DNA from: an uncultured Ruminococcus sp.
GTDB lineage: Bacteria > Bacillota > Clostridia > Oscillospirales > Acutalibacteraceae
Assembly (NCBI GenBank): GCA_902776375.1
Contig: CACYPV010000025.1
Span: 1-34,017, forward strand
Direction of reading: 5' to 3'
DNA length: 34,017 nucleotides
Shown: positions 350 through 16,863 of the stretch, piece after piece
How the letters are laid out: each line of letters begins with the position of its first letter
Position numbering within the stretch: the first letter of the stretch is position 1
The notes under the pieces: model-generated
What the model was told of the DNA's origin: nothing
Databases searched by the model: none
Seen by the model: only the letters and a program-made list of their open reading frames with translations
Made by a program: the position numbers and the translations under genes

Positions 350-843
350 ACTTCCGTCTTTCTCCTTTCCGCTTCTCCGCATATCCAGTTATGTTGCGCG
401 GGTTACCCTCATATACGTTTCGGGAATACCGAGAAAACATACATTACGATTGACGTCTTAAATTGTTCGGTCCTTCCCGAAGTTTTTTTTTCGGTACTAT
501 GACCTCTGCTGACTTCTCATAGTTCGTTGTTACTATGTCGGCTATGGAATCATTATTCCCACCACACCTATGAGACCTCACGGGATAAACCAATACTCTT
601 TCCTCGTCTGCCTGCCTGATTTACACATTAAGGTTACGGTTACCTTTTTGGACTTCGCTGCCGCTTGCCAGCTTATCCGCTTAATGTGCCTTTGTATCAG
701 GTTTCTATTCGTCAGGCTACGATTTCGCTATCCCTTCTTCTCGCCTGTACCTCGCGATACAAACCTTGGGAGTCGCTTTTGAGTTCGTTGGTAACTACGC
801 CTCGGTGGACTTTCACCACAGAGCATTGATATGCCCGTCATAC
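1..843 (-). mobile_element. Group II intron, 5' portion (runs off the left edge)
   Basis: The region combines the N-terminus of an intron-encoded reverse transcriptase (1-349) with about 490 bp of preceding non-coding sequence that reads like intron RNA domains I-IV on the minus strand. The putative 5' boundary is at 843, where the minus strand reads GTATGACGGGCAT, a plausible variant of the usual GTGYG intron start. A GTGGTGAAAGTCCAC-type stem follows shortly after. The boundary lies four bases past the T-run of a Rho-independent terminator, which is the known preference of bacterial class C group II introns. The 3' half, including domains V and VI, is outside the window, so class and 3' boundary cannot be confirmed. 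Confidence 0.8.
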
Positions 844-1616: not shown

Positions 1617-3758
1617 TCAATTTGCGGCTTGTTTTTTATTGAAAGCCTCGTCGAACGCTTTTGCCAGAGCCGTGTTGTTTGTGGCGATCACAAAGGTGCC
1701 GTCTGCTTTTTTCCCGATGCAATAATTCTCACCGGTTTGAACCGCGACGATATCTTTCCACCCGGAAACATTGCACTGTCCGCATGAATTATCGCCCGCC
1801 GCTATAACGGTACCGTCTTTTTTGACAGCTACAGCGTAATTTCCGGCGTAGGCATCAAACGCGACGATATCCTGCCAAGCTGAGACTTCATCCTGATAGA
1901 GCGGGAAAACATTATCCGGAAAATCTAAGGTACCGTCGTTTTTCAGCACCAAGCAGGAGCTGTGCCGGGCGAGTGCGGCGACATTGTTCAATCCGGAATA
2001 ACCTTTAACCCAATCGGAATCTTCCGTCATATTGGCGTAACAAACGGTGCCGTCGGATTTCAAGCCCAAAATATCAAAACCGTCGAATGTAACATCAACG
2101 ATATCGCTCCACTTAGCTATTTCCGACAAGTACGGACGATAGAAAGCGTTTCCGCCTGTTTCGTACTGCAGCGAAGCCACCGTTCCGTCGTTATATACAG
2201 CCAATATTTCGTCGTCAATTGCCGCCAGACTGCGTATTTTATCCCATGAACCGGAATCCGCCTTTTGGTAATCGGTGCTTTCACGCAAAACGCACATCGT
2301 GCCGTCGGTTCTCAGCCCGTAACAGTAACCGTAGCAGAATACAGCAGACACGATATCCTCGTTATTGGTTAACGCTATCGGTCCCCTTTCCGCGGAGGAT
2401 GCATCGACTGCGTCGGGATAAGCGTCATAAAACAAATTATACATACGTGCCTGTTTATTTTCATCAACGATCACGATGTTATAAATCGAATCAATTAAAA
2501 AGCTTCGGGACTGTGCGGAAGCATATTCGATTTCGGGAGAGATAACAAGCCCTGCCCCTGCCGGGGCCGATTCCTCTGCCGCAAACATGTCGTTTGTTGT
2601 CAGCGGTTCTTCTCCGGCAGCGGCTGTGCTGTCGGCAACTGCCATCGTAACAGACGTGCGGTTCAGCACATTTGCCGCCGTGATCCCCGCTGCTGCGAGA
2701 ACCAACGCCGCTGCTATACACGCCGCAACGGCGATTTTCCGTCCATGACGGTTTTTGCCCGACTTCTTTGTCAAAGGGCTGTCCTGTACCTCCAAAGCGG
2801 GTTCAGGCGTATTCGCAAGCATTTTTGCAAGCTCGCTCATGCTTTGGACGCGGTCCTTCGGAAGCACCGCCAAGCCTTTCAGTATCGCGTCTTCCAGGTG
2901 CGGCTCTATGGAAATCCCCAATTCAGAGGGCTTTTTGAGCTCGTCCGAAACAACCCGCTCGGGGGCGTCGGTTGGTTTGACTCCGGTAATGCTTTCGTAT
3001 ACCACGGCGCACAGGGCATATACGTCCGTCCACGGTCCCTGATGGTTTCCGTTTACGTACAGTTCATACGGAGCGTAACTGTTTTTGCGCTTGGAAAAAT
3101 ACGGCTCTGAAATGTTGTCCGAGAAATCGCACTCCGCATCAAAACCAAAGAGCACGAAACGACCGTCGGGCATAACCATAATGGTATCGGGAGAAATATC
3201 CCGGCAAACGACGCCTTCACGGTGCATTTTTTCAAGCAATCGAACCAGCGGGAGCACCTTGCCGATCAGGTCATCCGGAGAAAAAATGCCGTTTTTTTGA
3301 ATCGTTTGCGCAAGGGTGCTTCCGTCAAGGAACTCCGTGACCATATACGCGGTGTTGTTTTCGCTGAAGTAGTCGAGAACTTTAACATAATGAAGCTCCT
3401 CCGAAAATCGTGAAAGGCTAAGCACTTCCCTCATAAATTCTTTTTTTTCGTCCTCAAAGCGATTTTTGTCATGGGAGGCGCTGATCAAAACAGTATTGGA
3501 AACAGCATTTCTGCGCTCGGCATAACCGGACGGATAGTATTCTTTTATGACGACTCTATCGTTTGAACTGCTGTCAAGTCCCGCGTAGGTGACGACCGAT
3601 TTGCTCTCACCCATTTTGTTTCCTACGATATAACGGTTGAAAAGAACAGTACCTGCCGCAAGTTGGTGCTGCGGATTCTGCTGATTCGGTATATGATTAC
3701 AAAAAGGGCAGCTTTTACTGTCATTGGGAATTTCTTTCATACAGTGATAGCATAGCAA
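1617..3758 (-). CDS. Zinc-ribbon pseudokinase with TM segment and RCC1-like ectodomain
   Basis: The 713-residue protein starts with a zinc ribbon (C3-x2-C6 and C17-x2-C20), has a Ser/Thr-kinase fold at about 40-315, one TM helix at 341-364, and an outside region (about 400-700) of RCC1-like repeats with LKSDGTV and VSGWKDIVAV motifs. The ATP lysine (VIKEYYP, K72) and catalytic-loop Asp (CRDISPD, D187) remain. The loop Asn is Thr192, and the DFG triplet reads Gly205-Phe206-Asp207, so metal binding is probably lost. The glycine-rich loop is also weak. I therefore infer a pseudokinase or regulatory ATP-binding scaffold. The start is TTG at 3758, with GGAG seven bases upstream and the zinc ribbon immediately following. 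It lies 16 bp after the TIR gene in the same operon, and both share the ectodomain type. Confidence 0.85.
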   Translation of the reverse strand: MLCYHCMKEIPNDSKSCPFCNHIPNQQNPQHQLAAGTVLFNRYIVGNKMGESKSVVTYAGLDSSSNDRVVIKEYYPSGYAERRNAVSNTVLISASHDKNRFEDEKKEFMREVLSLSRFSEELHYVKVLDYFSENNTAYMVTEFLDGSTLAQTIQKNGIFSPDDLIGKVLPLVRLLEKMHREGVVCRDISPDTIMVMPDGRFVLFGFDAECDFSDNISEPYFSKRKNSYAPYELYVNGNHQGPWTDVYALCAVVYESITGVKPTDAPERVVSDELKKPSELGISIEPHLEDAILKGLAVLPKDRVQSMSELAKMLANTPEPALEVQDSPLTKKSGKNRHGRKIAVAACIAAALVLAAAGITAANVLNRTSVTMAVADSTAAAGEEPLTTNDMFAAEESAPAGAGLVISPEIEYASAQSRSFLIDSIYNIVIVDENKQARMYNLFYDAYPDAVDASSAERGPIALTNNEDIVSAVFCYGYCYGLRTDGTMCVLRESTDYQKADSGSWDKIRSLAAIDDEILAVYNDGTVASLQYETGGNAFYRPYLSEIAKWSDIVDVTFDGFDILGLKSDGTVCYANMTEDSDWVKGYSGLNNVAALARHSSCLVLKNDGTLDFPDNVFPLYQDEVSAWQDIVAFDAYAGNYAVAVKKDGTVIAAGDNSCGQCNVSGWKDIVAVQTGENYCIGKKADGTFVIATNNTALAKAFDEAFNKKQAAN

Positions 3759-3774
3759 TTGTATTCTCCTTCCA

Positions 3775-6465
3775 TTATTGTTTATTTACGGCAGCGTTGA
3801 AGCTTCTTGCAAGCGCCTGATCGTTTGTTGCGATGACATAAGTGCCGTCTGCTTTTTTACCGATGGTGCAGTCGACAAATGTCTGCACCGCAACAATATC
3901 GCTCCATCCGGAAACGTTACATTGACCGTAATCGTTGTTTCCGGAAGCAAGAAGCGTACCATCCGATTTCAGGCCGATCACCTGCTCAAACTCTGCGCTT
4001 CCTGAGCCGTCCATATCAACCTGCACGATATTACTCCATCCTCTTGCCTCTACCCATTCACCATCCGAATAGAAGTTGTACGAAAAGTCGAGCGTTCCGT
4101 CTGTTCGGAGAAGCACCTTCGACGGACCGTGCATCGAAAGCGCGGCTGCCTTCTTTCTGTTCATGCACAGGCTGCTCTGTTCCGTGGCAAAAAGCGTGTT
4201 TTCGGAATTCAGTCCAAACGTCATAAAGGCGTCGGTGCCGATTTCCCGAATATCCGTCCAATTCTTTACATTCAGCACCGGAGTAGAAGGATCTCCTGCG
4301 GTGACGACCGTTCCGTCGTCCTTTACGCCGAGCAGATACCCTCCACCTCCTGCAATACGGGTGATATTCTTCCATCCTGCAATTTCTTTTTGCGCGTCGG
4401 CACTTATCCCGTTTCCGTTGGTATAGAGAAAGGCGACCGTACCGTCTGTTTTCAGCCCAACTATCGAATATCCCGAATCTCCGAAAATTATTGTGCTCAG
4501 GTTTTCGTTGTTGCTGAGCAGATTGGTTTCATCTGTCAGTGTTGAACCCTCAATGGTGAACAGATGTGCGCGATGATTGTTATCAATATACGCAAACGCA
4601 TTGCAGGTTTTGTCTGAGAAAACGGTAAAAGAATACGCGAACGTGCGCGCTTGTTCATTCGCCAGCTTTATTTTTCCGGATAGGTTACCCTGCATTGATA
4701 CAGTGGCCGGCATATCAGCGGTTGTTTTGTTAATGGTTTCGTCGAACGCTTTGGTGAGTTTTTTGTTGTTGGAGGCGATCACAAAATGTCCGTCCGCCAT
4801 TTTGCCAATGGTATAGTTTTTACATGTTTTTACGGCGACAATGTTCTTCCAGTCAGAAACATTGCCCTGACCGTAGTTGTTGCCGCCAATAGCTGCGACG
4901 GTGCCGTCTGACTTCAGACAAACAAGGGACTCCTTGGTATTAAAGGCGTAGGAGTCAACACCGATAACATCCTCCCAATATTTGGCATCGCTAAGGTGGT
5001 CAGGAAAAAAAAGATTTGTACACGTAATCATACCGTCCCATTGGAGTCCGATGTTACTATTATGCGGTGCGACGGCGGCAGTGTTTAGCCAGCTTTTGTA
5101 CTCAGGCATTTTGTCGGGATCGGAAACGATTATCTTTCCGTCTTCTCTTAATCCAAAAACATAGAAGTCAACAAAGATATCCTCGATGCCCGTCCATGTG
5201 CTTTGTATATCGTCAAAAAGAGCAGTGTTGCGTGTACTGATCAGCACTGTCCCGTCCTTCCGCAGTCCGACGACAGAATCTGAGTCGCACGCTATTTTGA
5301 CAACATCGGTCCAGCCGTTGAACGCGTCCGCCTGTCCTTCGGACGGGTTGAGAACAACAACTGTGCCGTCCGATTTCAACCCGATAACTCTTCTTGATGT
5401 ATCCGACGCGCCTGTAAAGCCTACCGAAACAATGTCGCTGTTTTGAGGCGAGTTTAGGGTGTATTCTTTGATACCATCATCGAGCAATTTGTACCACTTC
5501 GCGTGACCGTTGACAATAGTTGCGAAAAAACCGAAATTATCTACTTCAAAGGTTGACATTTGTTTTTTGACGTCCTCGATTTGTTTTGCGATTCCGCTGA
5601 GTTCGGGCTTTGTTGTCGGAGCGGCTGCGGAGTTTTCATTAGGAACGGAGTTCTGCGTTTCAACGGAGGTACCCGGGGCAGGAATGGTATTTGCCGAAGA
5701 CCCGGCGCCGCTGTTCGCTCTGTTTACGGCGGGAATAATTACGGCAGCCGAAACGGCAAGTACGGCAGCTAACGCTATTGCCGGTATCGCGATCAGCAAT
5801 CTGCGGCGGCGTGGCTTCGGCTGCGATGGCGAACCCGCAGTCTTGGGTGCAACCGGCTGCGGCTTCGGTTCCTCCGCCGTCGTATTGACAGTTCTGTCCG
5901 CAACTTTTTTCCCTTTATACTCTGCCGCTTTTTTGCGGTTAAGAAACCACTTGTCACTGAAAGAATCGTTGTTTGCAGCTGTGCCTTCTTCCTCGCTTTT
6001 GAAAGACTGCTTCTTACCTTCGTCACTTATTTCCTTTGACGACGCCATCAACGGCGCGTGCAGCAGTTTGTTATAAAACGCCTCATCCGACAGTTCACAC
6101 ATTCGCAGCGACTGCTCGGTGGACAGTTGCATCATCATACCCGGAGATAAGGCAACATTCTCCAACACGATGGAAATAAACGGTTTTTTTTTCAAAATTG
6201 CATAGTTGATCTCTCGGCGGCAATTGTGCGAATTCATCGCGTTATCCGAAATCATTGCCAAGCATATTGCACAGCCCGTCAGGTGCTCGGCGATGATCTC
6301 CGGCCACTCGCTGCCGGGGTTGATACCCTCGTCGTACCAGATTCGAAAGCCCTCCCGTGCAAGCCTCTCAATAACGGGATAAACCTTTTGCTTGTCCTTG
6401 TGACAGTAGCTGACAAAAATATATTCTTCGTGCCCTTCATAAGGCTTTGCGCTGCAGCTTGTCAT
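3775..6465 (-). CDS. TIR-domain membrane receptor with two RCC1-like ectodomains
   Basis: The 896-residue protein has a TIR domain at about 13-130 (YIFVSYCHKDK, RIWYDEGINPGSEW). The CRREINYAI segment places the conserved glutamate at E85, the position used by NADase TIRs, so enzymatic activity is possible. A linker rich in K, S and P leads to a basic RRRR stretch and a TM helix at 222-246, giving TIR inside and the C-terminus outside. Outside are two homologous modules of about 290 residues (about 300-580 and 600-896), each ending with GQxNVSxWxxIVAV and IGKxADG motifs. The same module ends the neighbouring pseudokinase. The start overlaps the STAS stop by four bases (ATGA), so the two are translationally coupled. 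The ligand is unknown. It could be a peptide or envelope sensor; an antiphage role is a weaker alternative. Confidence 0.88.
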   Translation of the reverse strand: MTSCSAKPYEGHEEYIFVSYCHKDKQKVYPVIERLAREGFRIWYDEGINPGSEWPEIIAEHLTGCAICLAMISDNAMNSHNCRREINYAILKKKPFISIVLENVALSPGMMMQLSTEQSLRMCELSDEAFYNKLLHAPLMASSKEISDEGKKQSFKSEEEGTAANNDSFSDKWFLNRKKAAEYKGKKVADRTVNTTAEEPKPQPVAPKTAGSPSQPKPRRRRLLIAIPAIALAAVLAVSAAVIIPAVNRANSGAGSSANTIPAPGTSVETQNSVPNENSAAAPTTKPELSGIAKQIEDVKKQMSTFEVDNFGFFATIVNGHAKWYKLLDDGIKEYTLNSPQNSDIVSVGFTGASDTSRRVIGLKSDGTVVVLNPSEGQADAFNGWTDVVKIACDSDSVVGLRKDGTVLISTRNTALFDDIQSTWTGIEDIFVDFYVFGLREDGKIIVSDPDKMPEYKSWLNTAAVAPHNSNIGLQWDGMITCTNLFFPDHLSDAKYWEDVIGVDSYAFNTKESLVCLKSDGTVAAIGGNNYGQGNVSDWKNIVAVKTCKNYTIGKMADGHFVIASNNKKLTKAFDETINKTTADMPATVSMQGNLSGKIKLANEQARTFAYSFTVFSDKTCNAFAYIDNNHRAHLFTIEGSTLTDETNLLSNNENLSTIIFGDSGYSIVGLKTDGTVAFLYTNGNGISADAQKEIAGWKNITRIAGGGGYLLGVKDDGTVVTAGDPSTPVLNVKNWTDIREIGTDAFMTFGLNSENTLFATEQSSLCMNRKKAAALSMHGPSKVLLRTDGTLDFSYNFYSDGEWVEARGWSNIVQVDMDGSGSAEFEQVIGLKSDGTLLASGNNDYGQCNVSGWSDIVAVQTFVDCTIGKKADGTYVIATNDQALARSFNAAVNKQ

Positions 6466-6857
6466 GACGATTCCTCCTGCGTGTTGACAATCTCCAGAAT
6501 ATCGGAAAAGCCGCAGTCATCAAAAACGGTTTTGACCTCCTCGGATGGAGAAAGGATGATCAGCGAAGTGTTGGTTTCATCCGCGACCCGCTGAACCGTA
6601 AGAAGAGATTGCAGTGCGTTTCCGGAGATGTATTTTACATTGGACATATCCACGCGAATGGTACGGAAGTGAGGAATCGCCGCCATAAGCTCGTCCTCAA
6701 GCTCAAAAGCAACAGCACTCCGGATCTTTCCGAGCACGCGCATAAGCAGAACGCCGTCATAAACGGTTTCCGAAATCATCATCAGCAGCGTTTCATCCTC
6801 GTAGATTTCCAGAATATTATTCTTTATTTGCCTTTTTACCATATTTGCACCCGTCAA
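6462..6857 (-). CDS. STAS-domain protein (anti-sigma-antagonist-like)
   Basis: The 131-residue product is a single STAS domain of the SpoIIAA/RsbV type. It contains the strand-turn block TIRVDMSNVKYISGNALQSLL near residues 69-89. In classical members a phosphorylatable Ser follows the DS/SS motif at this turn; here the sequence reads ISGNAL, so the acceptor seems replaced by Gly/Asn and a kinase switch of the usual kind is doubtful. The longest start is TTG at 6857, with GGAGG four bases upstream and overlapping the preceding stop; ATG at 6842 is an alternative with a poorer site. It sits between the 59-aa peptide and the TIR receptor, which suggests it partners one of these signalling proteins or a sigma/anti-sigma pair. 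Confidence 0.82.
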   Translation of the reverse strand: MTGANMVKRQIKNNILEIYEDETLLMMISETVYDGVLLMRVLGKIRSAVAFELEDELMAAIPHFRTIRVDMSNVKYISGNALQSLLTVQRVADETNTSLIILSPSEEVKTVFDDCGFSDILEIVNTQEESS

Positions 6858-7033
6858 TCTTCCTCCGCGTCAAACGGAAAGATGTTTTCGCTGGCTGCCG
6901 CCGCTATCTCATCAAGCTCATCCAGCGAAAGCTCACAATCGTCATATTTTTCAATCAGCCTTGAAAGCCGGTCATCCGGAGCAAAATCTTGAGAATCCTT
7001 TATAGTTTCAAGAAATCGTTCAAATTGATCCAT
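6854..7033 (-). CDS. 59-aa acidic peptide, candidate RiPP leader/precursor
   Basis: The peptide starts MDQFERFLETIKDSQDF and ends SENIFPFDAEED. An amphipathic N-terminal half is followed by LSLDELDEIAAAA near residues 36-48. That motif resembles the ELSxDELDxIAGG end of Nif11/NHLP-type leaders, with Ala in place of the Gly pair, and would leave a short acidic tail after cleavage. GGAG lies about eight bases before the ATG, and a sigmaA-type promoter lies 36 bases upstream. The stop overlaps the STAS start. NHLM exporters with a C39 peptidase are encoded 4-6 kb upstream on the same strand. The precursor role is inference; a small regulatory protein that binds the STAS protein is the main alternative. 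Core residues such as Ser, Thr or Cys for modification are sparse. Confidence 0.75.
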   Translation of the reverse strand: MDQFERFLETIKDSQDFAPDDRLSRLIEKYDDCELSLDELDEIAAAASENIFPFDAEED

Positions 7034-7068
7034 GCTATCATCTCCGTTTTCTTTAGTTTATTATATTT

Positions 7069-7097
7069 ATTATACAAGTTCGCATGTCGATAATCAA
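7069..7097 (-). promoter_or_regulatory. SigmaA-type promoter for the 59aa-STAS-TIR-pseudokinase unit
   Basis: On the minus strand TTGATT (7097-7092), a 17-bp spacer and TATAAT (7074-7069) precede the 59-aa gene. This makes the signalling genes a transcription unit of their own. Confidence 0.75.
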
Positions 7098-7166
7098 TAG
7101 TTTTTTATTTCCTCTCCAAAAAACGAACCGGCGACGGGCAATTGGCAAGTTGTTTTGCACAGCTGT

Positions 7167-7640
7167 CTACCAAAAGATAACCAACAGCAGTCCCACTGTT
7201 GCAAGAACGCTAATCATAATGCTTCCCCATTTTTTAGGGCAGAACCATATGATCGCTCCGACAGTGATAAAAAGATTGATGATGTAGAACAAGATAAAGC
7301 CGCCGGCGCCGAGAAGCGTAAGAAATGCGTCGTCGGCGTCATCGTTTACGGTATGATAAAACCCTACAGCCAAAAAAGCCAGGTTCTGTGCAAAAGCCAG
7401 CCCGCAGGCAGCGCCGTTCGCCGCTTTGAAACCCACAGGCAGCGCCCGCATTACCCTTGTGCGGAGCACCGCTGCCACAGCCGCGAAATCCATAATCAGC
7501 AAAACGATCGCTATTTCGATGTAATGCTGCTCCATGAACCGGGCGGCTGCGCAGGCGCCGCCCGTTACGGTTCGTCCGATAATCAGCAGCGCCAGCACGA
7601 CTGCGGCAGTGAAGCCCAATCCCGAAAAAGCCCGGCTCAT
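7167..7640 (-). CDS. Multi-pass membrane protein, unknown
   Basis: The 157-residue protein starts MSRAFSGLGFTAAVVLALL and has about four or five hydrophobic segments, ending in GSIMISVLATVGLLLVIFW. The ATG at 7640 overlaps the stop of the upstream membrane protein by four bases (ATGA), which indicates coupled translation and fixes the start; a longer in-frame opening is probably not used. I recognise no family. Position suggests an accessory membrane component, immunity protein or envelope partner of the exporter/receptor locus. Confidence 0.75.
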   Translation of the reverse strand: MSRAFSGLGFTAAVVLALLIIGRTVTGGACAAARFMEQHYIEIAIVLLIMDFAAVAAVLRTRVMRALPVGFKAANGAACGLAFAQNLAFLAVGFYHTVNDDADDAFLTLLGAGGFILFYIINLFITVGAIIWFCPKKWGSIMISVLATVGLLLVIFW

Positions 7641-8032
7641 GCGATATTCTTTTGGATGGTGGAGGTGATCATTTTGGCAATTTGGAAGGGCGCCACAAAC
7701 ATACCGATAATGATCGATAGAATAAACTTGATCAGGAAATAAATGAGCCAACCCTTGAGGGGCATCCACACGAAGAGGTCGGGGGTGATCCTGTTAAGCG
7801 CTTTCCATCCGAAATAGGTGAATATGGCGATATAGGCGAACATCAGAGGGGAAGAGCCTATATTGATAAATGCCAACATGATTCCCCAGATGACGACATA
7901 GAACACGGCGATCATCCCGATCTTGCCTCCTGTTGACAGAAGGAAATCCTTAAATGTGTAGCGGTTCGTGTCAATTGTGTTGTTTTCCGTATAAGCAGTG
8001 TCGTTTACCATGTATGCAGTGTTGTTTTTCAT
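7637..8032 (-). CDS. Small membrane protein, unknown
   Basis: The 131-residue protein begins with a polar N-terminus (MKNNTAYMVNDTAYTENN) and then has three hydrophobic segments at roughly 38-58, 65-80 and 92-115. AAAGGAG lies seven bases before the ATG. It is 92 bp downstream of the secreted protein and overlaps the next membrane gene. The N-terminus contains a repeated NTAY/DTAY word and is probably cytoplasmic. No family was recognised. Confidence 0.78.
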   Translation of the reverse strand: MKNNTAYMVNDTAYTENNTIDTNRYTFKDFLLSTGGKIGMIAVFYVVIWGIMLAFINIGSSPLMFAYIAIFTYFGWKALNRITPDLFVWMPLKGWLIYFLIKFILSIIIGMFVAPFQIAKMITSTIQKNIA

Positions 8033-8124
8033 AATGATTCTCCTTTATTATTTTATTAATTGATTAGTTGTTATGTTGTATCGTGAACGTATTCGGTCGG
8101 GTCCGGGCAAACCGGACATCGTGT

Positions 8125-8550
8125 TTAATAGATGGTGCAATTAGAAGGGTTGGTGATTTTCCACTTATAGGTGTTTCCGATAACATCCCAATTCTGATTG
8201 GCGTAGTCAAGGTAGATTCTGTATGTATCATGATCATCGCCAAGCTTGATCTTGTCTCCGCCCTTGGCTGTCCACGAGCAGATATACTTTCCTCTGCCGT
8301 CGCGCAGCGTGACCTTGATCGGTCTGCCGGTGTTAAAGATATTCCATGCGGTGCCTGTGCTCAGTTTCACGGTGGCGTATTGCCTTCCTTTCTTGTTGAG
8401 CAGCTTCTGCGAGATTTTGACGGTGCAGTAGCTGTTGTCCATGGTTTTTCCTTTGGTCGCCGCCTGTGCGGACATGGTGCCGAAGGATGCGGCGGACAGC
8501 ATGGTGACGGCGGATAAAAAGGCTGCGATGGCTTTTCTTGTTTTTTTCAT
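8125..8550 (-). CDS. Sec-secreted 141-aa protein, unknown
   Basis: A classical signal peptide (MKKTRKAIAAFLSAVTMLSA, then SFGTMSAQAA with likely AxA cleavage near residue 31) precedes about 110 residues of mature protein. The mature part is rich in Lys, Tyr, Trp and Gly, with a predicted all-beta look (YATVKLSTGTAWNIF, YKWKITNPSNCTIY) and three cysteines (C42, C90 and one in the C-terminal NCTIY). AAAGGAAG precedes the start. The gene follows the exporter genes after a 118-bp gap that holds a strong inverted repeat. Its Sec signal means it is not the C39 exporter substrate. It might be a ligand for the RCC1-like ectodomains or an immunity factor; this is inference only. Confidence 0.8.
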   Translation of the reverse strand: MKKTRKAIAAFLSAVTMLSAASFGTMSAQAATKGKTMDNSYCTVKISQKLLNKKGRQYATVKLSTGTAWNIFNTGRPIKVTLRDGRGKYICSWTAKGGDKIKLGDDHDTYRIYLDYANQNWDVIGNTYKWKITNPSNCTIY

Positions 8551-8596
8551 AATGATAACTTCCTTTCAATATTTTGATCCGAGAGCCGTAAATGAT

Positions 8597-8634
8597 TTTT
8601 GCTCTTCGTATGTATATACACACGAAGAGCAAAA
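8597..8634. promoter_or_regulatory. 13-bp perfect inverted repeat with nested palindrome
   Basis: The arm TTTTGCTCTTCGT (8597-8609) is perfectly complementary to 8622-8634. The 12-nt loop contains the self-complementary word TGTATATACA. It lies between the second exporter gene and the secreted-protein gene. No clean T-run follows on the minus strand, so an operator or RNA structure is as likely as a terminator. Confidence 0.6.
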
Positions 8635-8668
8635 GTGTTACACAATATGAAAAATTTTTGAGGTTCCG

Positions 8669-10840
8669 CTAATAAAGTATCTGCCGATGCACCAACTCGC
8701 TGAACAAGCCGCTCTGTTTCATCAAATCGTCAAAGCTTCCTTGTTCCGCAACAGCACCGTCTTTTATCGTGATGATCCGGTCGCATTGAGAAAGCGTGCT
8801 GAGCCGATGAGCGATCACGATGCGCGTGACAGGCAGCGACGCTATGGTTTCTGCCACCACTCGTTGGGCGGCGTTGTCAAGCGATGAGGTCGCTTCATCC
8901 AGCAGAAGCAGCGCGGGCTTCGGTAACAATGCGCGCGCGATCAGAATTTTTTGCCGCTGACCGTCCGAAAACGTCTCGCCGTCTCCGCTGACCAATGTTT
9001 GCAGCCCCATCGGCATGGCGGCGATGTCCTCTTCAAGACCTGCCGCACGCACCGCGTCGGTTATTTCTTCTGCCGTCGCGTCGGGCTTGGTGAGCGCGAT
9101 GTTTTGCGCGATGGTGCCTGACATCAGCTTGCCGTCCTGTATCACCACGCCGATTTGACGGCGCAAAGCTCGCAAATCCAAACGGGAAACGGATGTATCC
9201 GCGTAACGCACTTCGCCTTGCTGCGGTAACTCAAACCCGAGCAGCAACCGGAACAATGTCGTCTTGCCGCATCCGGATTCTCCTGTTATCGCAAGATATT
9301 CTCCGGCGCTGATGTTAAGTGAAAGATCGCGCAGCACCGGCGGCATATCCGACTCATAAGCGAAGGTGACATTATCAATGGAAATATCGCTTCCGGCATC
9401 CGGCTGAACATCGTCGGAGATGTTCTCGCGATATTCCCCCGTGGCAGACTGCAGTTTTTGCAGCATCTTCCCGCGCCGCCCGAGCAGCGTCAGCGAATTT
9501 GCGACGGAAACGGCGCAGATCGCGCAGACAGACATTGCGCCTACGCATCCAAAAGGCAGCTCACCCCTGAACAGCGGGAGCAAAACGACGGTGAAAGCCA
9601 TGGGAACAACGGAGAAAAAAGCGGCGAAAAACCCGCTGCTACGGCGTATGGACGCCTGTGCGCGAACATGCACGAGCTCATGCTTGAGATATTCGAGCAC
9701 CGCGCGTTCCTCGGCGCCCGATATGCGCAGTGTCATAATCTTTGTGGCAAACTGATACAATAGCGCATCCGCTTCCTCTGACGCTTTGACAGAGGCTTCT
9801 CTGCGGCGCTCGTTTGTCGTGAGCACAAAAGCATAAGCTGTTATCAAGGCAGCCGTCCAGAAGGCTCCGAACAGTGCCGGAAGCGGCGCGAGCACAAAAG
9901 CGCACACCAGACCTGCGGCACCTGTCAGCGTGCCGCAGACCACTGCGATACTGTCTGTCAGCAGAGAGGCATACATTCGGTAAGAGCCGAGCAGCGATTG
10001 AGCGGTTTTCGTTATTTTTTCGCGGCGAAGCAGGCTCAAGCGCATCAGAAAGTATCGTTCGGTCACTTGCTTTTGCAGCCGCTGCGCCGCGTTCGAGACG
10101 ACTGCTCCCGCGAGATATCCTCTGCCTGCTATCGCCGCTGCGAACATCACAACGAGCAGAATCGACATAAAAATGCTTTGCGCAGCCGAATCAGGCTGTG
10201 GCACAAGCCAATTTTGCAGACATAGCGAAAACACAACGACGGAACAGGCGGAAAGCAGCGCCACTGCCGCAAGCACTGCCTTGTTCGCAGCAGAAAGTTC
10301 ACGACAACAGTGTCTGCCTGTTTTCAGGGCTTCCGGCAGATCGGAATGTCGTTTTTCGCGGTGTTTCTCCGTTTTGCCGCCGTGAAGCATGTCTATCAAC
10401 TGTTCCGCATCGCCGGCGTTGCGGCGGCGCTGCTGCTCAGAGCGTAGGATGAATCCCTCGTCGACCACGCGGGCAGTGCGCAAGCTGTCGCTCAACGCTT
10501 CAAAAAAATCCTCCTCCGCTTTTTCGGGCACACATTTTTTCAGAAAGGCGGTGCGCAGCTTTTTGGTGGAGCCGTTCTCGATAATACGGATCACCGCGTA
10601 GTCTTGTACGGCAAGCAGAAAGCGGTGCCGCTGATGATTGACGTCGGTGTAGCAGAAAGAGGGAATGACCTCTCCGCGGCGCGCTTCATATAAGAAACGC
10701 CGCTTGCCGTATCTGCCGCCTTTTGTTTCGGTGACGGCGAATACCAACAGCGTTCCCTCCCGGACAAAGAAGGCATCGTCGTTGTGCTCGGCAAGATAGA
10801 TTTCACCGCTGTGAAGTGTCAGCAAAGCAGGGTGACTCAT
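8669..10840 (-). CDS. NHLM-type ABC exporter, permease/ATPase without peptidase
   Basis: The 723-residue protein has an N-terminal soluble region (about 1-130) with a beta-rich, cupin/cyclic-nucleotide-like look, then a six-helix exporter domain (about 185-455) and an ABC ATPase. The ATPase has Walker A GESGCGKTT near residue 515, a signature reading FSDGQ (Asp replacing the usual Gly) and Walker B LLLLDEATSSLD. This order, paired with a C39-containing sister, is the pattern of the NHLM bacteriocin ABC pair described for Nif11/nitrile-hydratase-leader peptides. Its start overlaps the stop of the C39 partner (ATGA). The two probably act as a heterodimer. Confidence 0.88.
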   Translation of the reverse strand: MSHPALLTLHSGEIYLAEHNDDAFFVREGTLLVFAVTETKGGRYGKRRFLYEARRGEVIPSFCYTDVNHQRHRFLLAVQDYAVIRIIENGSTKKLRTAFLKKCVPEKAEEDFFEALSDSLRTARVVDEGFILRSEQQRRRNAGDAEQLIDMLHGGKTEKHREKRHSDLPEALKTGRHCCRELSAANKAVLAAVALLSACSVVVFSLCLQNWLVPQPDSAAQSIFMSILLVVMFAAAIAGRGYLAGAVVSNAAQRLQKQVTERYFLMRLSLLRREKITKTAQSLLGSYRMYASLLTDSIAVVCGTLTGAAGLVCAFVLAPLPALFGAFWTAALITAYAFVLTTNERRREASVKASEEADALLYQFATKIMTLRISGAEERAVLEYLKHELVHVRAQASIRRSSGFFAAFFSVVPMAFTVVLLPLFRGELPFGCVGAMSVCAICAVSVANSLTLLGRRGKMLQKLQSATGEYRENISDDVQPDAGSDISIDNVTFAYESDMPPVLRDLSLNISAGEYLAITGESGCGKTTLFRLLLGFELPQQGEVRYADTSVSRLDLRALRRQIGVVIQDGKLMSGTIAQNIALTKPDATAEEITDAVRAAGLEEDIAAMPMGLQTLVSGDGETFSDGQRQKILIARALLPKPALLLLDEATSSLDNAAQRVVAETIASLPVTRIVIAHRLSTLSQCDRIITIKDGAVAEQGSFDDLMKQSGLFSELVHRQILY

Positions 10841-12954
10841 GTGCTCACCTCCTTCATCAGCGCGCGGTACACGCCCTCGCCTGCAAGCTCTCGATGTGTC
10901 CCTTGTTGCACCACACGGCCGTTATCCAACACAAAAATAATATCGCAGTCTCGTACCGCACTCAGACGGTGTGAAATCATCACACAGGTGCAGCCGCGGC
11001 GGCGGATATTCTCAATGATCCTCTGTTCGGTCACAGCGTCCAGCGCAGCGGTTGCTTCATCGAGAATCAGCACCGAAGGATTGCTTGCCAACGCACGGGC
11101 AAGCGCCAGTCTGCTGCGCTGTCCTCCGGAAAAGTTCGCGCCGTTTTCGGTAACGGGAGCGTTCAGACCGCCCCGCCGCTCAATACACTCGCCGATACAT
11201 GCGTCCTGTATTGCGGCGGCGATATCTTTTTCGGAAATGCCGGCGTTCCACATGGTGATATTGTCGCGCACGCTGCCGGAAAAGAGCGAGGGATGTGTGT
11301 CGACGATTGCCACGCTTGCGTTGATAACGCTCTTTTGAACCTTATCCAACGTGATATGATCCAGGGTGACTCTCCCCTCCACAGGGCGGTACACGCCGCC
11401 GAGCAGCTTGGCGGCAGTAGACTTGCCGCTGCCCGACGTGCCGACAATCGCCGCAAAGCCTCCCGCAACAACGCTGAGCGAAAGACCGTGTATCACCTGC
11501 GGCGACAACGCACCGTAGGAAAAGCTGACGTTCTCAAGTGCCACCGCGCCGTCGGCTTTTTTGACGGAGGACAACTTGTCTTTCCTGTACAGTTCGTCCG
11601 GCGCGTAATCCGCTACATCGCACACCGCCGCCAAATCCGTTCGGAAGGACGGAAGGCGGATAAAGGCAATGACCACATCCCGCATCAAATGCAAAAGCAG
11701 TAGAAAAAGCAGTAGAAACGCCGCCGTCTCTCCTTCGGAAGCACCGTCTGCACGGCAAACAACGGTTATCAGCAGCACGGAAGCCGGCACAAGCGCTGCG
11801 GCGCAGGCGCGTGAAAGACCGTGAGCCGCCTCTCTTCTTTTTCGTGCGCACGAAAGCTTATTCATTTCCTTTTTCAGAACAGCAGCCCAGCGCTCCTCTG
11901 CGCCGGCTGCTTTAAGTGTTTCCATCTCGCATAATCCCGTATATATCCTGCCTGCCAGCACACTCTCTCCGGCGGCAAGCCTTGCAACGGAGCCCTCCAG
12001 GGCCATCGGTAACAGCGGAGCAACTGCGGCTGCTGTTGCGGCGGCCAGCGCGGAAAACGCACGCGGCATACTGTTGTAAAACATCAGAAAAAGCACCGGC
12101 AAAGCAGCGGTCAGACCCGATACTGCATTTGTCAGTGTTTCGGAAATATAGCGATTGACGGCGGCGCTGCGGTGCGATCTTCCGACAGGATCGCCCGCGT
12201 AGCGCTGCTCGAAGAATAGGAAGGGTAGCCTGAGCAGCTTCTCCGCAAATGCCTTTGCGGAGCGCAGGGAAAACTGACGACCGTTGACGCTGTTTACAAA
12301 GCAGCGCAGCACAAGAAAACCTGCCGCCGCCAAAACCGAAAGCAGCAAAACGACAACCGGGAAAAAACCTAAACTTTCCTGCAGTACAGATGCGTCAATT
12401 TCCCTCCACAGGCATCTGCAGGCAACACAGCAGCAAGTCACCGTTAGCAGCCGCAAAACGATTCCAAGTGCCATGCCTTGCGCGTATAAGCGTATTTGCC
12501 GCCTTGCAAAGGCAGGAATATCGGTTGGTTTCTTCTTTTCAAAGTCTGCTGTACGCTCAAAGGTAAGCACAATGCCGCCGTAAAGCGTGCGCAGTTCGCC
12601 GGGAGCCAGTTTGCGCCTTCCGACGGCAGGGTCGTTAATCAGGATGGATTTGCTTTTAAAGCCCTCCAAAACAACAAAGTGACCGCCCCGCAGCAAAAGT
12701 ATGCAGGGAGTTTGCAGGTCGCGCAAGCGCTCAAAGCTTTTTTTGAAACCGTGACCCTCCAAGCCGTGCTTTGCTGCAGCGCGGATCAAATTGCCCGCCT
12801 TGCTGCCGTCGCGCGAAACGCCCGCGTCAATCCGCAGCTGCTCCAGCGAAACCCTTCTGCCGTAGAACGCCAGAATCATTGCGAGCGAGGCGGCGCCGCA
12901 TTCGGCGGCTTCAAACTGAAAAATCGTAGGTGTCCTGTGAATCATTTTCATCAT
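10837..12954 (-). CDS. NHLM-type ABC exporter with N-terminal C39 peptidase
   Basis: The 705-residue protein starts with a C39 peptidase carrying Cys19 (AAECGAASLAM), His92 (RGGHFVVLEG) and Asp108 (INDPAVG), the triad that cuts leaders after double-Gly-type motifs. An exporter TM domain spans about 155-435. The ATPase has Walker A GTSGSGKS (505-512), signature FSGGQ (608-612) and Walker B VLILDE (628-633). It should cleave and export a leader peptide across the membrane. It overlaps the sigma gene upstream (TGATG) and the sister ABC downstream, so the three are one unit. No lanthionine synthetase or other modification enzyme is visible nearby, so the exported product may be unmodified. Confidence 0.93.
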   Translation of the reverse strand: MMKMIHRTPTIFQFEAAECGAASLAMILAFYGRRVSLEQLRIDAGVSRDGSKAGNLIRAAAKHGLEGHGFKKSFERLRDLQTPCILLLRGGHFVVLEGFKSKSILINDPAVGRRKLAPGELRTLYGGIVLTFERTADFEKKKPTDIPAFARRQIRLYAQGMALGIVLRLLTVTCCCVACRCLWREIDASVLQESLGFFPVVVLLLSVLAAAGFLVLRCFVNSVNGRQFSLRSAKAFAEKLLRLPFLFFEQRYAGDPVGRSHRSAAVNRYISETLTNAVSGLTAALPVLFLMFYNSMPRAFSALAAATAAAVAPLLPMALEGSVARLAAGESVLAGRIYTGLCEMETLKAAGAEERWAAVLKKEMNKLSCARKRREAAHGLSRACAAALVPASVLLITVVCRADGASEGETAAFLLLFLLLLHLMRDVVIAFIRLPSFRTDLAAVCDVADYAPDELYRKDKLSSVKKADGAVALENVSFSYGALSPQVIHGLSLSVVAGGFAAIVGTSGSGKSTAAKLLGGVYRPVEGRVTLDHITLDKVQKSVINASVAIVDTHPSLFSGSVRDNITMWNAGISEKDIAAAIQDACIGECIERRGGLNAPVTENGANFSGGQRSRLALARALASNPSVLILDEATAALDAVTEQRIIENIRRRGCTCVMISHRLSAVRDCDIIFVLDNGRVVQQGTHRELAGEGVYRALMKEVST

Positions 12955-13463
12955 CAGTAATTAATTTTGTTTATTTCAAAGTATTCCTTAAGTTTTTTGA
13001 TTGAACGTTTCAGTGTAACGCGCACGTTTGTCGGCGTCATACCGAACTGTTGGGCAATCTCGGTGGCGTTTTTGTTCTTGAAGTAGCGCAGAATCACAAT
13101 TGCCTGTTGTGTTTCGTTCAGGGTTTCCAGCGCATCCGCCAGCTTGTCGCGGAGGAACATGATATGCTGTGCGCGAATCACAGTTTCCTCCATATCATCG
13201 CTGACAGACAACTGCTCATTCAGCTCCGCAAAGTCCTTGCGGTCACGGTAGTAGTTTTTCAGCCGATTATTTGCAACCGCAAATACCCATGTACCATAAG
13301 ATGCTTTTTGGGGATTATATTCCTCAAAATGCTGATAGCAGCAAGTAAACACATCCATGGTTAAATCCTCGGAAAGATGAAAATTCGCGGTTTTTTTCAA
13401 AATATATTTATAGACCTTTTCATAGTAAGTTTTGTAGAATTCCTCATATTGTATTTTTTCCAT
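12954..13463 (-). CDS. ECF-like sigma-70 family factor
   Basis: The 169-residue protein carries region 2 (YEEFYKTYYEKVYKYILKK, LSEDLTMDVFTCCYQHF, WVFAVANNRLKNYYRDRK) and region 4 (ALETLNETQQAIVILRYF, ATEIAQQFGMTPTNVRVTLKRSIKKLKEYF), the two domains of ECF factors. AAGGA precedes the ATG. It heads the exporter operon and overlaps the C39 exporter start, so it probably drives this locus. No linked anti-sigma factor is evident; the STAS protein 6 kb away is the only partner-like gene. The recognised promoter is unknown. Confidence 0.92.
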   Translation of the reverse strand: MEKIQYEEFYKTYYEKVYKYILKKTANFHLSEDLTMDVFTCCYQHFEEYNPQKASYGTWVFAVANNRLKNYYRDRKDFAELNEQLSVSDDMEETVIRAQHIMFLRDKLADALETLNETQQAIVILRYFKNKNATEIAQQFGMTPTNVRVTLKRSIKKLKEYFEINKINY

Positions 13464-13555
13464 GGCTCATTTTCCTTCGCGCTTCCTGCTCTATCGAAGC
13501 CCGCTCTGCTTGACGTAACATATTATTTTGAAATTGCTTTTTTGGGTTCTCTTTA

Positions 13556-13584
13556 ATCATAGCAGAGTCGAATAAAAATTGCAA
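13556..13584 (-). promoter_or_regulatory. SigmaA-type promoter of the sigma/exporter operon
   Basis: On the minus strand TTGCAA (13584-13579), a 17-bp spacer and TATGAT (13561-13556) lie about 93 bp before the sigma-factor start. Basal transcription may thus be independent of the ECF factor. Confidence 0.7.
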
Positions 13585-13935
13585 GAACTATACCTTGCTT
13601 TTTCAAAAGCTTTACGAAGATATATTAGGTAAACACTGATTAATTCCAAATGCAGCCTTTTGTCGCAGGGGCGGTACGGCTGCGCAGGGAACGCAGCGAA
13701 CGGATGCGAAAAACAAAACAAATAATATGGATTTTGATTCCGGTGGACGCGTTCAACCGGTGGTTGGAAAGTCAAAGTCAAAAAGATTAGTGAAATATCG
13801 GAACAAGTTGCATAGTTGTATGCAATTTTTTTCGATTTCGTCCTATTAGTGGAGGGGCTTTCCCTCAACTACATTTTAGGAGGAATTATTATCAGTGTTT
13901 TATTGAACTATTATGACCCCGAGGAGGTGATAAAA
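13585..13935. other. 351-bp gap between sigma promoter and PrimPol gene
   Basis: There is no convincing gene. It contains a terminator-like hairpin (TTGCATA 13808-13814 with TATGCAA 13819-13825, followed by seven Ts) in the plus direction. It also holds AGGAGG at 13880, too far from any good start. The left boundary of the PrimPol element should lie in this gap, but I see no clear terminal repeat. Confidence 0.5.
13808..13832 (+). terminator. Hairpin plus T-run upstream of the PrimPol gene
   Basis: A 7-bp perfect stem with a 4-nt loop is followed by TTTTTTT. It is A/T-rich and therefore weak. It could shield the PrimPol gene from upstream transcription or act as an attenuator. Confidence 0.45.
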
Positions 13936-16786: not shown

Positions 16787-16863
16787 TGGTGCGCCATCAG
16801 GGACTCGAACCCCGGACCGACCGGTTATGAGCCGGTGGCTCTAACCAACTGAGCTAATGGCGC
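16787..16863 (-). tRNA. tRNA with CAT anticodon (probably elongator Met)
   Basis: The 77-nt minus-strand sequence folds as a complete cloverleaf. The acceptor stem pairs GCGCCAT with ATGGCGC, the D-arm is AGCTCAGTTGGTTAGAGC, the anticodon loop is CTCATAA (anticodon CAT), the T-arm contains GGGGTTCGAGTCCC, and CCA is encoded. A CAT anticodon can belong to elongator Met or to lysidine-modified Ile2. Elongator Met is more likely, but sequence alone does not settle it. It is not initiator-like, since the anticodon stem lacks the three G-C pairs. Confidence 0.93.

Follow-up and report, generated by a model that had tools for sequence, protein, structure and literature searches.

An ECF switch, a peptide exporter, an export-tag look-alike and a TIR signalling set appear to be inherited as one unit in some uncultured Clostridia, mostly of the gut and rumen. 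The arrangement is established by comparison of loci and is described here from the window, the whole analysed stretch of 34,017 nt. By this comparison the subtype has, on one strand, an ECF factor and a C39-ABC/ABC pair for export, a position for cargo or a secreted protein after an ECF-type promoter, a candidate leader mimic, and STAS and TIR proteins, often joined by parts of Ser/Thr kinase, PP2C and FHA type. Between the exporters of the unit, identity falls as low as 34%. TIR signalling, which is usually treated in the context of phage defence, is here connected with peptide export and with a sigma factor of its own, in bacteria of the gut and rumen.

Layout of the island and exporter linkage

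The genes named by the first-pass annotation, which had placed them on one strand, are all on the minus strand, near the places it gave them, from 13463 to 1617. The first gene of the island encodes an ECF-type sigma factor (12954..13463; Sigma70_r2 and Sigma70_r4_2 above cut-off; TIGR02937). It is followed by the genes for a C39 peptidase-ABC exporter, a divergent NHLM ABC1 (10837..12954; Pfam Peptidase_C39 and ABC_tran), and for a second, NHLM ABC2-like exporter subunit (8669..10840). A putative ECF promoter, TGTAACA-N14-GTGTATA, lies at 8615..8642 on the same strand, and directly after it the gene of a 141-aa protein with a signal peptide judged from sequence (8125..8550). Next are a 131-aa membrane protein, also recognized from sequence and with no family above cut-off (7637..8032), and a 157-aa membrane protein (7167..7640), for which the ATG at 7640 is a better start than 7769, where the listed ORF (7167-7769) begins. 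A sigma-70-like promoter, TTGATT-17-TATAAT (7069..7097, minus strand, 10/12 matches), stands ahead of the gene for a 59-aa peptide (6854..7033). The STAS gene (6462..6842, Pfam STAS) has an ATG start, with a TTG at 6857 possible. The last two genes encode a TIR protein with a TM helix (aa 225-243) and two RCC1/BLIP-II-like propeller copies (3775..6465), and a protein with a zinc-ribbon-like N-terminus, a pseudokinase, a TM helix and a single propeller copy (1617..3758). Overlapping starts and stops, as reported before, are present between C39-ABC and ABC2 (4 nt), between STAS and TIR (4 nt) and, if the TTG start is used, between the 59-aa and STAS genes (4 nt).

The exporter had been called an NHLM exporter. 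The C39-ABC/ABC pair is indeed NHLM-like, but both subunits score under the NHLM cut-offs (TIGR03796, 609 vs 853 bits; TIGR03797, 386 vs 709 bits, still the best-scoring NCBIfam model for ABC2). Among relatives, L097 (1010 bits) and L106 (975 bits) pass the TIGR03796 cut-off and L116 (530 bits) fails. Residues Cys19, His92 and Asp108 of the C39-ABC protein are invariant in a four-sequence alignment.

Within the genus, TIR was found at E <=1e-25 in 12 of 161 genomes, 3-7 kb from the exporter in 7 of them; an eighth genome, G129, has an exporter-linked TIR with a weaker match. Gene order is conserved, with exporters 34-44% identical to that of the window. Genomes G012, G017 and G116 carry, in the same places, ECF orthologues (57-58% identical) and membrane proteins 30-33% identical to the 157-aa protein. 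The 141-aa protein, whose structure model is poor (pLDDT 46), has matches in 2 other genomes of the 161, one good (5e-12) and one marginal (9e-4, 60 aa).

Linkage was counted in 80 TIR loci of named genomes, at least 10 kb long in 15 of the 19 with STAS and 44 of the 61 without. In 13/19 TIR loci with STAS, and in 0/61 without, C39-ABC or ABC2 is encoded nearby (p=9e-11). The counts are the same for ABC2 alone (13/19 vs 0/61, p=9e-11), 11/19 vs 0/61 for C39-ABC alone (p=7e-9) and 16/19 vs 9/61 for any ABC piece (p=5e-8); as the loci are related, all these p-values overstate the significance. STAS stands beside TIR in 23 distinct loci (22 plus L180; the duplicates L094=L043, L095=L042, L096=L075, L098=L044, L109=L076 and L179=L105 counted once). 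C39-ABC is present in 15 of these, ABC2 in two (L122, L128) and just a contig-edge ABC piece in three (L121, L130, L131); the contigs of L099, L112 and L136 end before the exporter position. Seen from the exporter side, TIR-linked exporters are a rare, minority subtype, with TIR at 3/31 of the exporters found across the order (394 genomes), some of these loci being short contigs. Conserved co-occurrence, the check proposed at the outset, is clear from the signalling side and limited to these 3/31 from the exporter side. On the exporter tree (47 rows; a quick build with long end branches, the window's included), TIR linkage changes once. Neither ECF factor, 59-aa peptide nor promoter motif was found in L076-L078, so these parts are not essential to the pairing of TIR and exporter.

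The putative ECF promoter and the 59-aa peptide

An ECF-type promoter common to the loci, which the first-pass annotation did not have, is seen in the present analysis. The motif was defined on 5 loci and then run on 18 held-out STAS-TIR loci, 14 of which contain the site TGTAACA-N14-G[T/G]GTATA, mostly preceding peptide genes. At spacing 14 the held-out loci gave 18 sites, compared with 0-2 for each other spacing from 10 to 18 and 0 in 8 shuffles; they have the conserved -35/-10 elements and fixed spacing before target genes by which an ECF promoter is recognized, and the promoter is termed putative. In the stretch read, 3 of the 4 motif-less held-out loci have no ECF gene. At <=1 mismatch the motif is absent from 61 control TIR loci and 10 other NHLM loci, and it is absent from 27 further TIR-less exporter loci. 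The 2.64-Mb genome of the window holds a single perfect copy. A 1-mismatch site at C19:39911 of that genome is at control level (3 control matches). Sigma-70-like sites numbered 17, against 10.9 expected in shuffles, which is weak evidence for the sigma-70-like promoter before the 59-aa gene; with such a promoter ahead of the peptide gene, the 59-aa-STAS-TIR part of the window may not need the ECF factor.

The 59-aa peptide had been described as leader-like. Its ORF is without a GG site, having AA instead, and all 23 members of the family have Ala in place of Gly at -2, which disfavours ordinary cargo. Family alignment, leader code and co-occurrence with ECF suggest that the peptide is probably a leader mimic. 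The tail of the family matches the C39 docking residues for leader tails given in the available excerpt of PMC6363468, and the window peptide has Leu-12, Glu-8, Leu-7 and Ile-4, in agreement with the docking code. The docking pattern (L/M/I at -12, Leu at -7) fits 23/23 members, with Glu-8 in 13/23 and V/I/L-4 in 19/23; the -12 and -7 residues and A or G at -2/-1 were imposed, which leaves as free observations the Ala at -2 and the counts at -8 and -4. The L079 peptide fits the pattern less well. The 37 GG peptides compared (both copies of the L105/L179 contig included) were selected by G at -2 and so provide no test. No NCBIfam leader model matched in the five members scanned, and the window peptide is the sole family match in its own genome at E up to 1.

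The family is present in 20 of the 21 distinct ECF-bearing loci among 57 loci in all (both, 20; ECF only, 1; peptide only, 4; neither, 32, many of these being short contigs). The ECF-only locus, L181, has a peptide of GG type (E 1.5), and the peptide-only loci L121, L122, L130 and L131 all end before the ECF position. L179 was excluded as a duplicate; L079, with its peptide found by eye, was counted as having both. The peptide filter demanded A[AG] near the site and the profile was seeded with some of the same loci; an earlier, smaller profile without this filter recovered most of the same peptides. On the exporter tree ECF and peptide agree in 5/6 independent pairs, the remaining one not differing (p=0.06). 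In four other NHLM loci the peptide and ECF genes share a 4-nt overlap, and in several TIR loci the peptide gene adjoins or overlaps that of STAS.

GG precursors are present in L044, L076-L078, L100, L105, L106, L112 and L128. In five of these (L044, L100, L105, L112, L128) GG Nif11-type peptides lie directly 3' of the promoter; those tested gave weak scores, under cut-off, with TIGR03798/TIGR03949. This position, together with the same-place small membrane proteins in four loci including the window, is what would be expected of a bacteriocin island with self-protection, which would export bacteriocin-like peptides, with the 59-aa peptide as a minor cargo whose site is unusual and either TIR/STAS/kinase or the small membrane proteins as an immunity and stress-sensing module. 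We regard such an island as possible but rather unlikely. A search of small ORFs for a GG/GA/GS-like site pattern turned up nothing convincing as a GG peptide in the neighbourhood of the window's exporter, and a Nif11 profile of five sequences only found no GG cargo in its genome; a hidden GG cargo in the window was rejected on these searches. The invariant Ala at -2 also counts against a cargo role, and we know of no TIR or kinase that serves as a bacteriocin immunity gene.

STAS, TIR and kinase-like proteins

The window's STAS protein matches SpoIIAA structures. In alignments, the position of the SpoIIAA serine which we take to be phosphorylated is Gly in the window and Ser in 3/8 STAS proteins. 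An RsbW-type gene was found in 0/23 TIR loci and in 12/37 exporter loci without TIR (HATPase_c_2 in both proteins tested). A sigma/STAS partner switch of the standard kind, to which the first-pass annotation had pointed, is not supported, given this Gly and the count of 0/23.

The TIR domain has Glu85, and the glutamate, which aligns with the catalytic one of the Cat1 TIR, is retained in 20/22 aligned TIRs. In L180, Pfam finds FHA but no TIR. Since the glutamate is lost in 2/22 and L180 is without a Pfam TIR, NADase activity is not essential everywhere. The kinase-like protein keeps the Lys and the catalytic Asp. Its Gly loop is degenerate, T replaces N after HRD and GFD replaces DFG, in support of its earlier naming as a pseudokinase: CRDISPDT and GFD stand where an active Hanks kinase has HRD...N and DFG. 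Among 12 kinase hits, GFD occurs in the window only; paralogues with DFG and propeller-like ectodomains are encoded elsewhere in the window's genome.

The two receptors share an ectodomain, as had been noticed, in that the TIR ectodomain has two copies in tandem, both with 34-36% identity to the one copy that the kinase-like protein carries. Its description as RCC1-like stands for the TIR protein, with RCC1_2 above cut-off, but RCC1_2 is below cut-off for the kinase-like protein. The AF2 model of the propeller (pLDDT 81) resembles BLIP-II and RCC1/UVR8 propellers (Foldseek, BLIP-II 2e-10 and RCC1 7e-7), and by this model the fold is predicted to be an RCC1/BLIP-II propeller. A TIR-borne propeller was seen in the window only, Pfam having been run on 8 of the 22 other TIR proteins (L042, L044, L097, L100, L105, L106, L128, L180). 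FHA is present in 18/22 STAS-TIR loci, and PP2C and kinases in several. Around a constant TIR-STAS core, the outside part of the receptors is predicted to vary (LRR, propeller). The order TIR-TM-LRR in three loci is that of a Toll-like receptor mirrored in reverse.

The retained glutamate and its alignment with Cat1 would also suit anti-phage defence, in which TIR would be an NADase effector triggered by kinase/STAS/FHA and the exporter would free an alarm or toxic peptide. PADLOC matched TIRs to ThsB and SAVED-TIR and kinases to PD-T4-6 and Mad6 (L116 kinase, 183 bits). Nevertheless, defence is improbable: the TIRs score low in PADLOC (16-32 bits), kinase matches of the PD-T4-6/Mad6 type are common among Hanks kinases, two TIRs are without the glutamate, and the single TIR change on the 47-row exporter tree is unlike a freely moving defence cassette. 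A known defence system was rejected on the TIR scores and the common kind of kinase match. An accidental neighbourhood, in which a common NHLM-like exporter landed next to a receptor operon, would fit TIR at only 3/31 exporters of the order but is very improbable, and was rejected for the set of loci taken together, in view of the single change on the tree, the counts of 13/19 vs 0/61, the order conserved among exporters 34-44% identical and the promoter common to held-out loci.

Proposed mechanism and related systems

The best reading, held with moderate confidence, is an ECF-controlled export island in which the leader mimic reports the state of the exporter to ECF/STAS and a TIR/FHA/kinase module. 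In this explanation the island is an inherited subtype of the NHLM-like peptide-export island. Transcription by the ECF factor would cover the cargo position and, in several loci, extend to the mimic-STAS-TIR genes. The mimic would dock on the C39 domain via Leu-12/Leu-7/Val-4 and, because -2 is Ala, would stay uncut; docked yet uncut, it would report whether the exporter is free and would relay this state to the ECF factor and STAS. The TIR/FHA/kinase module, which would sit where RsbW-type proteins sit in related export loci, may sense an outside or phosphorylation signal and set the circuit; alternatively, it may act as a brake or effector that consumes NAD. The window itself has extracellular propellers instead of FHA, a kinase that by motif is a pseudokinase and, at the cargo position, a secreted protein of Sec type. 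That a kinase can act on an ECF factor has a precedent in the available excerpt of PMC13147305.

A more specific version is offered tentatively, as rather improbable in all its details. An uncuttable copy of the tag on the exporter peptidase, displaced by real cargo or an idle exporter, would switch the ECF factor via STAS, and a membrane TIR/kinase receptor (FHA, LRR or propeller) in the RsbW seat would set the threshold. If true, this would amount to a new regulatory principle, in which ABC peptide exporters have a sigma switch that is coupled to export and connected to a TIR receptor. The promoter with a single perfect copy, the uncleavable leader mimic and the receptors with a changing outside part are testable predictions.

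Literature searches found no described system with this combination, in agreement with the first-pass annotation. They returned no description of NHLM with a TIR domain (a weak negative, 'NHLM' itself being scarce as a search word and subscription papers mostly outside the search), no paper on Nif11 with a TIR domain, nothing joining three or more of TIR, STAS, serine threonine kinase, double-glycine and sigma factor, and nothing joining ECF, anti-sigma, lantibiotic and exporter regulation. The available excerpts of PMC7159879, PMC7075850, PMC2887384, PMC6363468 and PMC13147305 hold no description of the present system, and the words TIR, STAS and sigma are absent from the text of Haft and others 2010 (PMC2887384).

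As far as the excerpt of that paper goes, NHLM/Nif11 export is alike in its C39-ABC and ABC2 pair, with a HlyD-like gene and Nif11-type GG peptides in several of the present loci, which differ in adding TIR, STAS, FHA, kinase, ECF and the Ala-site peptide. PknS-EcfK, as excerpted in PMC13147305, likewise has a membrane Ser/Thr kinase and an ECF factor controlling a secretion system; the window differs in that its kinase is a pseudokinase, and also in the type of exporter and in the partners. The likeness to SpoIIAA/RsbV-RsbW lies in the STAS fold and in PP2C and kinases in several loci, whereas the Ser is kept in only 3/8, the sigma factor is of ECF type and RsbW-type genes are missing from all 23 TIR loci. 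FxsC-type proteins (NCBIfam NF040588) of FxSxx RiPP clusters are also TIR-like proteins near a peptide system, but the window TIR scores just 20 bits where the cut-off is 130. FlgM is an export-coupled anti-sigma. The mechanism proposed here resembles it in logic, in that a small regulator is linked both to an export machine and to a sigma factor; it has an ABC exporter in place of flagellar export and a regulator predicted to stay uncut.

Linkage of the exporter to STAS and TIR genes

A STAS search of 100 genomes of the genus yielded three clear relatives (63, 58 and 39% identical). At all three loci the genes for ECF sigma factor, C39-ABC, ABC2, a 59-aa-like peptide, STAS and TIR follow in the order of the window, which bears out the co-occurrence in conserved order raised in the first-pass annotation. 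Genome G066 additionally carries PP2C and an intact-motif kinase between peptide and STAS, and further a TIR-FHA fusion, an HlyD-like gene and Nif11-like GG peptides. TIRs of this kind (E up to 1e-25) were found in 12 of 161 genomes of the genus, in seven of them 3-7 kb from an exporter; G129, with a weaker TIR, is an eighth genome with the pairing. In the remaining five TIR loci of the genus (11-17 kb each) no C39-ABC exporter was found.

A wider set comprised the best 80 of 294 loci from a scan with the TIR alignment. STAS adjoined TIR in 19 of these, all from MAGs or uncultured hosts (Ruminococcus, Oscillospiraceae, Ruminiclostridium, Lachnospiraceae, Peptococcaceae and other Clostridia/Bacillota). 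With one criterion for both groups (a C39-ABC or ABC2 gene >300 aa), an exporter was present in 13 of the 19 loci with STAS vs none of the 61 without (p=9e-11, a value that overstates the significance because the loci are related). All six exporter-less STAS-TIR loci stop at contig edges: L121, L130 and L131 have an ABC piece at the edge, and in L099, L112 and L136 the edge lies 7.4, 4 and 0.3 kb upstream of TIR. Named-genome and genus loci plus L180, duplicates taken out, gave 23 distinct STAS-TIR loci, 22 of them with a STAS-TIR gene spacing of -104 to +122 nt.

Across the order, 31 such exporters (E up to 1e-130) occur in 30 of 394 genomes. STAS-TIR was present at two of the 29 exporter loci read, several of which lie on short contigs; one of the two is on the contig of L105, and the exporter locus of G039 (L081) yielded no STAS-TIR. 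Since only three of the 31 exporters, the window's included, are TIR-linked, islands with TIR form a minority subtype within a larger exporter family. The proposed neighbourhood of exporter and signalling unit is supported from the side of the STAS-TIR loci; from the exporter side it is seen in a minority. In a quickly built exporter tree of 47 rows, the TIR trait shows a single change. Among NHLM loci without TIR, L182, L183, L184 and L199 encode a STAS protein of ~100 aa and an RsbW-type ATPase, and L199 additionally about eight GG peptides in a run.

Putative ECF-type promoter and the 59-aa peptide

Common sequence words were first noticed upstream of the window's 141-aa gene and the GG peptide of L044. 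The motif TGTAACA-N14-G[TG]GTATA was defined from five loci and then scanned elsewhere. At spacing 14 and <=1 mismatch, 22 sites were summed over 22 STAS-TIR loci; the 61 control TIR loci lacking STAS (823 kb) and 10 other NHLM loci contained no site. The 18 loci outside the defining five contained 18 sites at spacing 14 and 0-2 at the remaining spacings tried (10 to 18), and eight first-order shuffles of them contained none. The motif was present in 14 of these 18; it was absent from L076, L077 and L078, whose analysed stretches also yielded no ECF gene, and from L136, which lies at a contig edge.

The sole perfect copy in the window's genome (8642-8615, minus strand) precedes the gene of the 141-aa protein. 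The gene behind the motif encodes Nif11-type GG peptides in L044, L100, L105, L112 and L128, the 59-aa-type peptide in L106, L116, L122, L124, L130 and L131, and a membrane protein in L042 and L075; in L097 the nearest gene is that of the peptide, starting ~350 nt away. In L121 an NlpC/P60-domain protein (691-1848) lies ~300 nt behind the putative promoter, ahead of the peptide-STAS-TIR genes.

In 15 of 22 STAS-TIR loci (L122 included), and also in L180, a member of the 59-aa family is encoded between the exporter and STAS. Relatives sit next to ECF in TIR-less NHLM loci; at four of them (L183, L187, L189, L199) the gene for the Ala-site peptide overlaps that of ECF by 4 nt. Of the 57 distinct exporter loci, 21 carried ECF, 20 of them with the peptide; four had the peptide without ECF, all ending before the ECF position, and 32 had neither. 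The two co-vary in five of six independent tree pairs, with none opposite (p=0.06). The C39 docking pattern for leader peptides, taken from PMC6363468, is fitted by 23/23 peptides (V/I/L at -4 in 19/23). Position -2 is Ala in 23/23, vs the usual C39 site of GG, GA or GS. Because the docking pattern fits throughout while -2 is always Ala, we infer that the peptide docks on C39 without cleavage, and read it as a probable leader mimic.

STAS, TIR, kinase and ectodomains

The STAS profile matches SpoIIAA structures; the SpoIIAA phospho-serine position is Ser in three of eight STAS proteins and Gly in the window. The TIR protein may occupy the seat of RsbW, because an RsbW-type ATPase gene is present in 12/37 exporter loci without TIR vs 0/23 with it. 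Two of these ATPases were confirmed as HATPase_c_2.

TIR Glu85 is conserved in 20 of 22 proteins. Because Glu is lost in L077 (Gln) and L078 (Arg), and Pfam finds only the FHA part and no TIR in L180, though that locus retains the island, these copies look like pseudo-TIRs, seemingly kept in the island as if for binding only. L161, L168, L170 and L143 carry two to four TIR genes in tandem, with no C39-ABC exporter in the stretch examined. Of 12 kinase matches, eight have DFG, L124 and L131 have DFN, and the window has GFD; the remaining one is L099.

The region C-terminal of TIR varies, with FHA in many loci and TM without an additional domain in L042, L043 and L075. TIR-TM-LRR proteins, the domain order of Toll-like receptors reversed, are encoded inside the export islands of L100 (10001-12640), L105 (9989-12340) and L106 (7264-9507). 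In the window TIR is followed by TM and two propellers. BLIP-II and RCC1/UVR8 are protein-binding folds; the predicted propeller structure matches both (BLIP-II, E 2e-10), in agreement with the RCC1-like ectodomains first proposed. FHA-ABC transporter fusions of 775-803 aa lie downstream of STAS-TIR in L116, L122 and L131.

Proposed circuit and genomic surroundings

Gene content, gene order, promoter site and residue patterns are established by comparing the loci; every contact and every control direction in the following circuit, the most likely reading, is inferred. The ECF factor would switch on the exported or secreted product, often the signalling genes too. The 59-aa peptide, predicted to be able to dock on C39, would connect the exporter with ECF and STAS. 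Input, or an effector based on NAD, would come from TIR, FHA, kinase and PP2C, and in the window from a TIR protein and a pseudokinase that share the propeller ectodomain.

The exporters belong to a known family. No description of the regulatory and receptor part was found in the literature searched, nor any paper there that combines Nif11 or NHLM with TIR, consistent with the initial statement that no described system of this kind was known. The text of the founding NHLM/Nif11 paper (PMC2887384) mentions a kinase once, beside a Burkholderia TOMM cluster, and contains no TIR, STAS or sigma.

The window corresponds to contig C25 in a genome assembly of 2.64 Mb and 76 contigs, and the island genes run from 13463 down to 1617 on the minus strand. 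A D5-type primase/helicase gene (13816-16269; NrS-1 polymerase HBD, D5_N and Pox_D5 domains) is located upstream on the opposite strand, followed by a tRNA-Met (16787-16863, minus strand); this may be what is left of an integrated element adjoining the island. Downstream, a group II intron extends to the contig end (1-761; two Rfam matches, 470-540 and 592-761, minus strand), which interrupts its reverse transcriptase ORF (2-382, start only). Paralogous zinc-ribbon kinase-TM proteins are encoded elsewhere in this genome (L010, 8165-10531; L011, 9377-11587; L009, with kinase genes in a row), two of them with repeat ectodomains resembling the window's propellers.
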